A DNA stretch of 64,000 nt, taken from Salinicola avicenniae. GTDB lineage: Bacteria > Pseudomonadota > Gammaproteobacteria > Pseudomonadales > Halomonadaceae. The position numbers were made by a program, and so were the translations under genes. Of this stretch, positions 22,642 through 27,233 are shown piece after piece. The stretch spans positions 496,001 to 560,000 of the forward strand of contig NZ_JAKQZC010000004.1 in the NCBI RefSeq assembly GCF_023736115.1, in the 5' to 3' direction. How positions within the stretch are numbered: position 1 is the stretch's first letter; the number at the start of each line of letters is the position of its first letter. Under the pieces are notes generated by a model. That model searched no databases and was not told where the DNA came from. It saw only the letters and a list, made by a program, of their open reading frames with translations.

Positions 22642-22693
22642 CTGGCTCGGAGGCTGCCGCTAGCGCCTTGGTTACCTGGCGTCTTGCGGTACG

Positions 22694-23404
22694 CTACTGC
22701 GTGTCGCTGGCGGGCTCCCAGCACCATTCTCGGTGCGTTCGCGCGCAGCGAATGAACGCCTGCTGTCCGGTCAGCCAGTCGATGATATCGAGTGGTTGAG
22801 GCGCCGGCAGCAACGCGTGATCGGGGCCGGTCTCGAGCGATCTGTCGACCAGACGCCGGGTATCGGCGCCGGGCACGAGCCCTAGGCGCAACGCCACGGC
22901 GGCGGCAAGGGTATTCGGGGCATAGGCGGCGAAGCGTTCGGGCACCGGTTGATCGCCGAAGACCACCAGCACGCTGGATTCGCCGTCGGCCAGATAGCCC
23001 CGGGCCTCCGCCATCAGCGCACCCCACTCCGCACCGCTGGCGGCAATCGCCTGCTGGCTGCGGCGGTTGCCGCTGGCGATGGAGTAGACACCGATAGTGG
23101 CGTTGTGCACGGAGAGACCGAAACGCGCAGGCGACAGGGGATCCCCGTCATCGAGCGCGTAGAGCATCTCCAGCGTGCGATCGCCGTCGCCGTGGCGGGA
23201 GGCGTGCAGCACCACGTGGTTCGACGCCGGGTCGAGCTCGAGGAGCATGTCGCAGACCGCGCGGCCGATCAGGTTCAGGCGCCGCCGCAGCATCGCGGGA
23301 ATGGCCGTACCGGCGGGCTTGTCCCGCGTGTCCAGACGCGTGTTGCCCGCCGCATCGCGATGGGGTGTCCAGCCTCGCCAGTCCTGTAGATAAAGATCCG
23401 TCAT
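22694..23404 (-). CDS. Ketosynthase-like chain-length factor (ApeC-like)
   Basis: 236 residues from the ATG at 23404. It matches the short beta-ketoacyl synthase-like family of APE clusters: SVHNATIGVYSIASGNRRSQQAIAA stands where a ketosynthase would have its cysteine loop, but no active-site Cys is present, and the C-terminal half of a normal ketosynthase is missing. In E. coli ApeC forms a heterodimer with ApeO and sets chain length. It is the first gene of the minus-strand cluster. A 183-bp gap follows it, where apeD and the first ACP gene usually sit. Confidence 0.82.
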   Translation of the reverse strand: MTDLYLQDWRGWTPHRDAAGNTRLDTRDKPAGTAIPAMLRRRLNLIGRAVCDMLLELDPASNHVVLHASRHGDGDRTLEMLYALDDGDPLSPARFGLSVHNATIGVYSIASGNRRSQQAIAASGAEWGALMAEARGYLADGESSVLVVFGDQPVPERFAAYAPNTLAAAVALRLGLVPGADTRRLVDRSLETGPDHALLPAPQPLDIIDWLTGQQAFIRCARTHREWCWEPASDTQ

Positions 23405-23836
23405 CACGCCGTATCGAACATCCAGTGGTCACGGGTTTTCGCATCATAACGGATTCGGGCCGCGACGCCGTGCAAGCAATATGCATTCGGCGAGATTGGC
23501 AGTCGTCATGGTCGGCGGGGAGGGGGCGGTGCGGATCGCTGCGCCGGGATGCAGGTTCCGAGCGCGTCACATAAAAGCGCCGGACCGGAGCCCGACGCAC
23601 TCGGGAAGGACGATTCCACGAGTCAGGATAGCGTACCGCCGGCTCCCGCCGACTGATTTAACCCATGCTAATTATTGAGTTATCTCGGTGAATCTACGGC
23701 TTTTTTCGCCGTTTTCCCAGAGCCGCCCCTTTCGGTGGCGCACTTTCGGGGGCGTTATTTTGCGTGCGTGGCTTGCTGTTGATAGTGACAAGCCTACTGA
23801 CGCGACCTGGCCTTGCCAAGCGAGGCAATAAAATAG
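23405..23836. other. Gene-free region upstream of the APE-like cluster
   Basis: About 430 bp without a credible protein gene. An AT-rich patch (23655-23695) lies where a minus-strand promoter for the cluster would be; the best pair I see is TTCACC and TAGCAT with 16 bp between (about 23664-23691), which is weak. The symmetry GGCTTG/CAAGCC lies around 23770-23795. The region ends at the promoter of the putative small RNA at 23873. Confidence 0.4.
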
Positions 23837-23866
23837 TTGTACAGTTCCTGTACTGATTGCTAATCT
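23837..23866 (+). promoter_or_regulatory. Promoter of the putative Csr-type small RNA
   Basis: TTGTAC (23837-23842) and TAATCT (23861-23866) are separated by 18 bp, a fair sigma70 pair, placing transcription start near 23873. The inverted repeat GTACAG-TTC-CTGTAC (23839-23853) overlaps the -35 hexamer and is a candidate site for a regulator. The canonical GacA upstream element TGTAAG-N6-CTTACA was not seen in the 100 bp above. Confidence 0.5.
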
Positions 23867-23872
23867 TGGTTA

Positions 23873-24036
23873 GGTATCGTCGGGTCAGGATGACCAGATG
23901 GCAGGACGCCAATCACCAAGGAAGGTGGTATCGGCAGGGAAGCGGCGCGCGGCAGGACGCCACACACTCGCATCGGAAGCCGTTTTTGATGATACGCCCC
24001 CGACACGCCCGGCAGCCGCTGGGCGTTGTTTTTATT
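23873..24036 (+). ncRNA. Putative CsrB/RsmY-type CsrA-sequestering small RNA
   Basis: No protein frame is convincing here, but the plus strand carries six GGA triplets in 90 nt (23888, 23904, 23920, 23938, 23955, 23975), five matching A(N)GGA. Four lie in small hairpin loops: GGTCAGGATGACC (23883-23895), TGGC-AGGAC-GCCA (23899-23911), CACC-AAGGAA-GGTG (23914-23927) and GGC-AGGAC-GCC (23951-23961). The transcript would start near 23873 and end at the intrinsic terminator 24006-24036, about 164 nt. Repeated GGA loops are the known hallmark of RsmX/Y/Z and CsrB/C RNAs that titrate CsrA/RsmA. The assignment is by architecture, not by a database match. Confidence 0.72.
24006..24036 (+). terminator. 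Intrinsic terminator of the small RNA
   Basis: CGCCCGGC-AGCC-GCTGGGCG (24006-24025) folds into an 8-bp stem (one G-U pair) followed by TTGTTTTTATT on the plus strand. No plus-strand protein gene lies upstream of it, so it points to a non-coding transcript. Confidence 0.8.
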
Positions 24037-24075
24037 GGCGAGGGGCTTAGTTTTTTTTACTGGTGAGGGGCTTAG
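24037..24075. repeat. Two copies of GAGGGGCTTAG at the end of the permease gene
   Basis: GGCGAGGGGCTTAG (24037-24050) and GGTGAGGGGCTTAG (24062-24075) differ by one base. The second copy covers the permease stop codon. A run of eight T lies between them. This looks like a small local duplication of the gene end. Confidence 0.6.
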
Positions 24076-25568
24076 CGGCTGCAGGGGTCGTCCAGCGGTG
24101 CTTCACGCGGGCGGAAGCGACGCGAGAGGGCGTCGACCGCGATGTTGAGCGCCGCTGTGATCAGCAACAGGAAGAAGGCCTGGTCGAACATCAGATATTC
24201 GAAGCTGGAATCGATGTAGAACCCGAGCGTGGCCACACCCAGCATGCCGAGAATCGCCGTCTCACGCAGAATGACCTCGGCGCGGTAGCAGATCAGCGCC
24301 AGCAGGTTGGGATAGAGTCGCGGCAGCAGCTCATAGGCGTAGCGGCCACTCGCGGGCAGCCCCGGCATGCCAGGCGTCAGTCCATCCGCGTGGCGGGCAA
24401 CGAGAAAGGCAATCAGCGCACCGTTGTGCAGCGCCAGCGCGAGCCACGCCGGCAGCATCGATGGGCCGAGCATCAGTAGAAAAATGAACGCCAGCATCAG
24501 TTCCGGCGTCGAGCGCAGCACGACCAGCAGCAGCCGCCCGCCGGCCCGCTGCCAGCGGTGGCCGAAATGCCGACTGGCCAGCGGCCATAGCAGTAGCGCG
24601 AGCACCAGGCTTCCGACCGTTCCCATCAGGGCCAGCAGCAGGGTGTTACCGATCGCCGGTAGCAGATCGGGGATGTCGGCGAGCCAGGCGCCCATTCCGA
24701 CGATATCGCCTTCCAGTAGCGGTGCTGGCCAGAGATCGTGGCTGACGAAGCGCCATAGCAGGTCGCCATCGACGGCCGGCCAAGGCCCTAGCCAGAAGAG
24801 TGCCCCGACCAGGAGCAAAGGCAGCAGGCGTCGATGCCCCCACACTGGCAGCGTGGCGATCAGCAGATAAAAGAGCCACAGCAAGGCGCCGGCCTCGCCA
24901 AAGCGACCCTCGCGAAACGCGCTCTCCAGGTAGAACCCGAGTGTCGGCAGGCCGACAAAGCCGAGCAGCACACTGGCCCGCATGGCGCATTCGAAGCGAT
25001 AGCGGGTGTAGCTCGCCAGCCGCCCCCACACCAATGGTAGCTCCGTGTAGAGAAAGCGCGAGAGCCGATCGACGCCAGGCGGGAGCGCATCGCCGGGTGC
25101 CTTCGGCGTCAGTTCCAGAATCTCCGCATAGACCTTGGCGAAGATTCCTGCGTAAGGGATGGCGAGCGCGGCGAGCGCGGTGATGGCGGAGAGGCCGAAC
25201 ACCTGCAGGAACAGCAGCGCCCAGAACAGTTCATGAATCGCGCGAATAAAAGCACAGAACCCCCGCAACAGTCGCGACCGATGGAACAACAGCGCCAGCG
25301 GAAAGCCCAGCAGAGCGCCGAGGAAGGTCCCCCAAAGGGCGACACTGACCGTGAGCGCGATGGCTTGCAGTGGGCTTTCCAGTGCCAGCCAGTTCGGCCA
25401 GGCGAAGCCGAGCGCCATGCGCTGCAGCTCGTGCCATGGGTCTGCGGCGGTGACGTCGAGATCGGCTAGCGGCAGCAGCAGCACGCAGAGCGCCACCAGC
25501 GCCAGCGAGCGGCGGGCGAGCACGAGGCCGGGGCTGTCGCCGCGCAGCCAGCCGGGCGCGCGGCTCAT
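24072..25568 (-). CDS. PhnE-like ABC permease, two fused permease domains
   Basis: 498 residues, about twice the length of a single PhnE (about 260). Two copies of the binding-protein-dependent permease domain are seen: the first around GFPLALLFHRSRLLRGFCAFIRAIHELFWALLFL, the second around LLLVVLRSTPELMLAFIFLLMLGPS, each with a following ILE/LLPRLYP-type coupling region. It overlaps the ATPase gene by 4 bp. The protein would form the whole membrane channel of a phosphonate/oxyanion-type importer. Confidence 0.87.
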   Translation of the reverse strand: MSRAPGWLRGDSPGLVLARRSLALVALCVLLLPLADLDVTAADPWHELQRMALGFAWPNWLALESPLQAIALTVSVALWGTFLGALLGFPLALLFHRSRLLRGFCAFIRAIHELFWALLFLQVFGLSAITALAALAIPYAGIFAKVYAEILELTPKAPGDALPPGVDRLSRFLYTELPLVWGRLASYTRYRFECAMRASVLLGFVGLPTLGFYLESAFREGRFGEAGALLWLFYLLIATLPVWGHRRLLPLLLVGALFWLGPWPAVDGDLLWRFVSHDLWPAPLLEGDIVGMGAWLADIPDLLPAIGNTLLLALMGTVGSLVLALLLWPLASRHFGHRWQRAGGRLLLVVLRSTPELMLAFIFLLMLGPSMLPAWLALALHNGALIAFLVARHADGLTPGMPGLPASGRYAYELLPRLYPNLLALICYRAEVILRETAILGMLGVATLGFYIDSSFEYLMFDQAFFLLLITAALNIAVDALSRRFRPREAPLDDPCSR

Positions 25569-27125: not shown

Positions 27126-27233
27126 GGAGGGAACCTCGATCCGTTCAGGGGGGGGCTTATGATAACCGGATTCTTGCGCGCGGATTAAGCCGATCGTGGT
27201 TGTAAGTGATCGCTGACAGGTTCGGCACTGCCG

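Follow-up and report, generated by a model that had tools for sequence, protein, structure and literature searches.

Known Csr/Rsm RNAs and the Halomonadaceae

The closest described counterparts of the predicted small RNA (sRNA) considered here are RsmY and RsmZ (PrrB) of Pseudomonas (Rfam RF00195 and RF00166), which are like it in length class, in carrying a row of short GGA hairpins and in being stand-alone units with a terminator. CsrB and CsrC of enterobacteria and vibrios are alike as GGA-hairpin sponges of the protein CsrA, and are longer, with more sites. In Vibrio, the available text of one study describes several sibling sponge RNAs per genome (PMC6262261), as predicted below for the Salinicola genome analyzed here. 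RsmW of Pseudomonas aeruginosa is an RsmY/RsmZ-type RNA with three of its seven GGA motifs in outer loops, is not activated by GacA, and seems to arise by processing of a gene's 3' UTR (PMC4950607); the RNA described here differs from it in having, by sequence, its own promoter.

Much less has been written on the Halomonadaceae, the family to which both Halomonas anticariensis and Salinicola belong. The table of a 2020 review gives the sRNA partners of the Gac system of H. anticariensis as unknown (PMC7366521), and the accessible text on Halomonas hydrothermalis gives CsrA and names no sRNA for it (PMC12889724). No Csr-type sRNA of this family was described in the openly licensed titles and abstract openings covered by our search (Halomonas, Salinicola, and aryl polyene with CsrA/GacA).

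We analyzed a 64-kb stretch of Salinicola DNA (the window; G000:C6:496001-560000) in which a CsrB/RsmY-type RNA had been proposed from the letters alone. The plus-strand segment 23873-24036 is, with a probability of about 0.87, a stand-alone gene for a Csr/Rsm-type sRNA that would sequester CsrA. This reading is favored because of the anatomy of the unit, its conservation by compensatory change, the absence of a reading frame common to its copies, the presence of CsrA and a UvrY homologue, and the sibling RNA candidates located elsewhere in its genome. By score it is not a member of the Rfam families RsmY, RsmZ, or CsrB/CsrC, and most likely it works as they do; genome comparison makes a new member of the Csr/Rsm type a well-supported prediction.

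Anatomy of the locus

The unit has the parts anticipated by the original prediction. Its sigma-70-like promoter (23837-23866, plus strand) consists of a -35 element TTGTAC at 23837 and a -10 element TAATCT at 23861, separated by an 18-nt spacer, with the TG of an extended -10 one base 5' of the hexamer. A strict sigma-70 scan of 23300-24500 reported no promoter, because eight of the 12 consensus positions match here and the scan requires nine. From the position of this promoter, the start of the sRNA is placed at 23873, giving a predicted transcript of about 164 nt (23873-24036), supported by its fold, its copies in the genus and compensatory changes. The transcript would end in an intrinsic terminator (24005-24036) formed by a nine-pair stem (24005-24026) and a T run.

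Six GGA triplets (at 23888, 23904, 23920, 23938, 23955, and 23975) lie within 90 nt, as originally proposed. Five had also been described as A(N)GGA; five are indeed preceded by A or AN, and only two follow A-N-GGA in the strict sense. The fold places four triplets in small hairpin loops, again as anticipated. GGTCAGGATGACC is located at 23883, within the first hairpin (GGTC-AGGAT-GACC, 23883-23895), which is followed by a second (TGGC-AGGAC-GCCA, 23899-23911) and a third (ATCACC-AAGGAA-GGTGGT, 23912-23929). The two predicted copies of GGC-AGGAC-GCC were found at 23900 and 23951, and the latter (23951-23961) is confined to the window and G016, being absent from the other four orthologues.

The sRNA gene stands head to head with the gene for a beta-ketoacyl synthase (22694-23407, minus strand; Pfam Ketoacyl-synt_2, 4e-47), the first gene of an aryl-polyene-like cluster that further along encodes ApeI-like, ApeP-like, KR, and ketosynthase domains. 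On its other side, and convergent with it, lies a gene for a PhnE-like ABC permease (24072-25568, minus strand), whose TIGR01097 score of 215.7 bits is just below the cut-off of 216.7.

Comparison with Rfam families and with chance

The covariance search called for by the original prediction was run and gave no hit to a Csr/Rsm model at its threshold: a search of the window at the Rfam gathering thresholds accepted no family, and none of RsmY, PrrB_RsmZ, CsrB, CsrC, and RsmX reached its curated cut-off. RF00166 aligned along 23865-23986 with a score of 13.3 bits (E 0.85; cut-off 44), covering the full model and opening large gaps. It is the only Csr/Rsm family in the list at E 10, which omits one hit of lower score from its clan, and CsrB and CsrC do not appear in that list. 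The sRNA thus differs from RsmY and RsmZ both in this score and in that no GacA box (TGTAAG-N6-CTTACA) was found for it. RF00166 also gave matches in eight of the 14 control genomes, and the cut-offs of RF00166 and RF00195 were exceeded in none of the 18 Salinicola genomes. Matches to RF00195 in the genus were set aside: many fall near model positions 96-121 and look like terminators, some loci gave matches on both strands, and nine of the 14 control genomes gave matches among those listed.

Taken by itself, the sequence of the window copy is suggestive, modestly above chance (p about 0.02-0.03). Folding of 23873-24036 shows the GGA hairpins and gives z = -2.05, with six of 200 shuffles folding as well or better, and the GGA-hairpin count yields p = 0.029 and 0.021 against 5,000 shuffles. 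When both strands of the window were scanned in 110-nt stretches (25,556 in all), some other places equaled or exceeded this count, the top one being 53456, where the letters appear to resemble coding DNA. The excess varies among the six copies of the sRNA described below (p 0.026 to 0.145) and is weakest in G016 (p 0.145) and G004 (p 0.073). Since a single sequence is only suggestive, the comparative evidence decides.

Conservation of structure across six genomes

Both the promoter and the terminator are kept in all six copies, with TTGTAC invariant, as is TG-N-TA in the -10 region. The terminator stem has 96.7% of its cells paired and one pair changed on both sides. The three GGA hairpins have 97.1%, 95.7%, and 92.7% of cells paired, with two, zero, and three pairs, respectively, changed on both sides. 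RNAalifold, applied to the six-row alignment, gave 45 pairs, and 13 of these are changed on both sides at least once. Covariation was counted on 32 of these 45 pairs (four hairpins and the terminator), leaving out the closing helix and one helix of the 3' part. Past about 23960, the copies of the window and G016 are unlike the remaining four. Across the alignment, 94.2% of cells pair and eight of the 32 pairs are changed on both sides, with a covariation score of 0.252 where shuffles average 0.126; none of 500 shuffles reached the observed values for pairing, double changes, or covariation. Further pair types numbered 15, compared with 12.9 in shuffles; since 44 of 500 reached this number, it is not beyond the shuffles. 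Controls with slid partners paired 29%-45% of cells, a comparison that flatters the structure because the structure was derived from the same alignment.

GGA stands in three or four hairpin loops of every one of the six copies, while the stems vary (for example GGTC-AGGAT-GACC, GAGATC-AGGAA-GATCTC, and GGGATC-AGGAA-GATCCC). This bears on an alternative in which the locus encodes a structured sRNA working through base pairing or through a protein other than CsrA, with the GGA loops incidental. The modest excess of GGA hairpins (p about 0.02-0.03, and up to 0.145 in the copies) and an Rfam score far under the cut-off speak for such an RNA; the retention of GGA in loops despite stem change speaks against it, as does the recognition of two copies by a model trained on sibling RNAs (see below), and we consider it improbable.

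The proposed lack of a protein gene is supported, as none of the four longest frames per copy is common to all six. Kept GGA hairpins without a frame shared by all six among these are the opposite of the pattern named beforehand as refuting the RNA reading. The close copies G005, G015, and G013, and partly G004, do have some frames in common, of 24 to 48 codons; in the window, 49- and 46-codon open frames run off the end of the sRNA copy, and a mechanical plus-strand frame of 138 codons (24063-24479) lies antisense to the permease gene. These frames are what a gene for a small protein, or its leader, could draw on, and against the compensated stems and the lack of a frame shared by all six among the four longest we regard such a gene as barely credible.

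Distribution and history within Salinicola

The comparison set comprised 58 related genomes, 18 of them of the genus Salinicola, family Halomonadaceae. BLASTN over the 58 genomes found one other copy, in G016 (S. rhizosphaerae KCTC 32998), 67% identical to that of the window. Synteny of the permease and synthase genes in the 18 Salinicola genomes led to five copies besides the window, namely those of G016, G005, G004 (S. endophyticus CPA92), G015 (strain MFB021), and G013 (S. tamaricis F01), so that six of the 18 carry the sRNA, all upstream of the same ketoacyl synthase gene. A BLASTN search for the sRNA in plasmids gave no match, nor did a synthase protein search of genome contigs.

A covariance model trained on the six copies (R1) scored 97.8-150.4 bits in six genomes, all of them its training rows; nothing else scored above 22.8 bits (stricter filters), so over the 58 genomes no copy outside the training set was found. 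A second R1 match in the window (22686-22810, minus strand; 16.5 bits, E 0.0014) was taken as chance, and weak R1 E-values are therefore not trustworthy.

The six copies represent about three deep lineages. Four form one clade in the PhnE tree, and in neither the PhnE nor the KS tree do the six carriers form a single clade. One early gain followed by losses, or several gains, are both possible histories of the sRNA, because the basal forks of the two trees are open. The presence of the gene in only six of 18 genomes, together with the persistence of a conserved minus-strand motif (see below) in G012, where no copy was found, could also suggest a relic or chance assembly, conserved only through recent ancestry or as part of a back-to-back promoter region. 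Such an origin is very hard to reconcile with copies as diverged as those of the window and G016, whose stems are kept by double changes, or with the retention of promoter and terminator in all six, and we give it little credence.

Csr components and candidate sibling RNAs

CsrA, which a sponge of this type would require, is encoded once in each of the 18 Salinicola genomes (92.8 bits in G000), and each also has a single UvrY homologue with an E-value no higher than 1e-40 (47% identity in G000). With the hairpins conserved by compensatory change in six genomes, the presence of CsrA throughout the genus lends support to the original CsrB/RsmY-type interpretation.

Sub-threshold RF00166 matches and weak R1 matches served as pointers to other GGA-rich loci of the genus, from which two sets of sibling candidates were aligned (A7, six rows, giving model R2; A8, three rows, giving model R3), both without any copy of the window sRNA. 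Each model matches in all 18 Salinicola genomes at E 0.01 (6 of 18 for the window sRNA). In G000, they point to C5:577354-577474 and C3:553240-553360, both with rows of GGA hairpins and a terminator, and each recognizes the other's locus (R2 at C3:553241, 61.1 bits; R3 at C5:577361, 79.7 bits). The genome thus has at least two sibling candidates, which makes the window sRNA, different from them in sequence and place, at least the third such candidate.

In whole-genome searches, R3 found two copies of the window sRNA (G015:C105:10383-10510, E 6.2e-5; G005:C1:997081-997213, E 3.5e-4) and missed four of the six at E 0.01. Within the 64-kb window, R3 gave no match at E 1, and the sole R2 match, a weak one, was 23879-23992 (9.6 bits, E 0.96).

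Several observations concern the siblings themselves. The first G000 locus (L046, plus strand) matches Rfam RsmY at 32.6 bits (E 1.2e-4), under the cut-off of 57. An exact TTGAT-N4-ATCAA box, which we take to be that of FNR/ANR, lies upstream in five of six loci (L046, L036, L037, L039, L047, and L055) and is absent from six other sibling loci examined; it may point to oxygen control of a candidate Csr sponge. The second family, with GGA hairpins, comprises the other G000 locus (L120, plus strand), L097, and L106; R3 gives 90-146 bits at one place per genome in 14 of the 18, three being its training rows. For a further family of GGA-rich RNA candidates (L041, L042, and L044), BLASTN with the G003 copy as query gave matches with E-values no higher than 1.5e-10 in 10 of the 18 genomes, G003 included, and weak partial matches in three more, among them G000:C8:27815-27983.

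The permease-synthase interval of G003 holds a sibling of another family (L064 1892-2009; G003:C1:81671-81788, minus strand), and the corresponding matches (from about C1:81666 to 81788) score 83.8 bits with R2 and 80.2 bits with R3. This single case hints at turnover of Csr-type genes at this place.

Under the CsrA-sequestering reading, the transcript would fold into a row of short hairpins with GGA in the loops, CsrA dimers would bind these loops, and production of the sRNA would draw CsrA off its mRNA targets; together with its siblings, it would probably act on the cell-wide CsrA pool. Transcription of the sRNA, its binding by CsrA, and the signal that would drive it are inferred.

Upstream control and the aryl-polyene operon

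The UvrY/GacA box TGTAAG-N6-CTTACA, as given in the available text of PMC4682653, has no match within three mismatches near the sRNA gene. In the 300 nt upstream, the best candidate has mismatches at six of 12 positions, and the window as a whole contains four matches with at most three mismatches against 4.72 expected by chance. Since the best candidates at 14 sibling loci likewise have three to six mismatches, the genus may use another box. Lack of a GacA box is also no bar to the Csr type, because RsmW is not GacA-activated. Elsewhere in the window, 27201-27218 reads TGTAAGTGATCGCTGACA, which departs from this box at one position; it is flanked by the genes for a phosphonate/selenate-type binding protein and an RpiR-type regulator.

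Between the divergent genes, at 23789-23819, lies a conserved motif, CAAGCCTA-N15-CTTGCCAA, that reads on the minus strand as a sigma-70-like TTGGCA-N17-TAGGCT. It occurs exactly, once each, in seven of the 18 Salinicola genomes and always at the sRNA/synthase locus. At up to two mismatches there are 12 occurrences in all against 11 for a backward control, so only exact matches count. The likeliest interpretation is a leftward promoter that would serve the aryl-polyene operon and stand back to back with the sRNA promoter. An activator site for the sRNA was considered for the same motif and dropped, since the motif fits a promoter when read on the minus strand and also occurs in G012, in which no copy of the sRNA was found.

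The synthase end of the interval has features of its own. By eye, a GGA lies within the last 45 nt before the synthase start in 17 of 18 Salinicola genomes, mostly 16 to 20 nt away, and is a possible candidate CsrA site. The synthase leader (23577-23640, minus strand) holds two hairpins, GCGCCGG...CCGGCGC (followed by T in many rows) and GGA-ATCG-TCC, the pair being alike in 16 of 17 aligned rows and not in G012; this alignment omits two rows, G015 (an insertion) and G018 (another genus). In the window, this leader region is terminator-like on the minus strand, and a possible role for the pair is that of an attenuator. Farther out, about 200-380 nt upstream of the synthase gene, a TTGAT-N4-ATCAA-like box with at most two mismatches occurs in 14 of the 18 genomes (L056-L073) and is lacking in the window, G012, G009, and G014; in the rows inspected by eye it is followed by TAGGCT at a spacing suited to a class II activator.

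The placement of the sRNA upstream of an aryl-polyene-like cluster stands as first described, and the regulatory link suggested with it is hypothetical: the synthase gene is present in all 18 genomes, and 12 of them have it without the sRNA. The connection between the sRNA and the aryl-polyene genes is positional only, and a special effect on the adjoining operon is possible. One more specific form of such an effect, which we think rather unlikely, is a sponge tied to the cluster, in which back-to-back promoters would drive the operon and an sRNA that removes CsrA from the GGA located about 16-20 nt ahead of the first biosynthetic gene.

Implications for the family

If the cluster-tied arrangement were true, pigment synthesis would bring with it its own local release from global repression by CsrA, and the promoter-like motif on the opposite strand, together with the GGA near the synthase start, makes such local coupling testable. 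More broadly, a candidate Csr-type RNA adjoins a pigment cluster in Salinicola, and the sets of siblings differ within this one genus. The window sRNA and its siblings provide concrete candidates through which the output of the Gac/Csr system in the Halomonadaceae would become directly testable.
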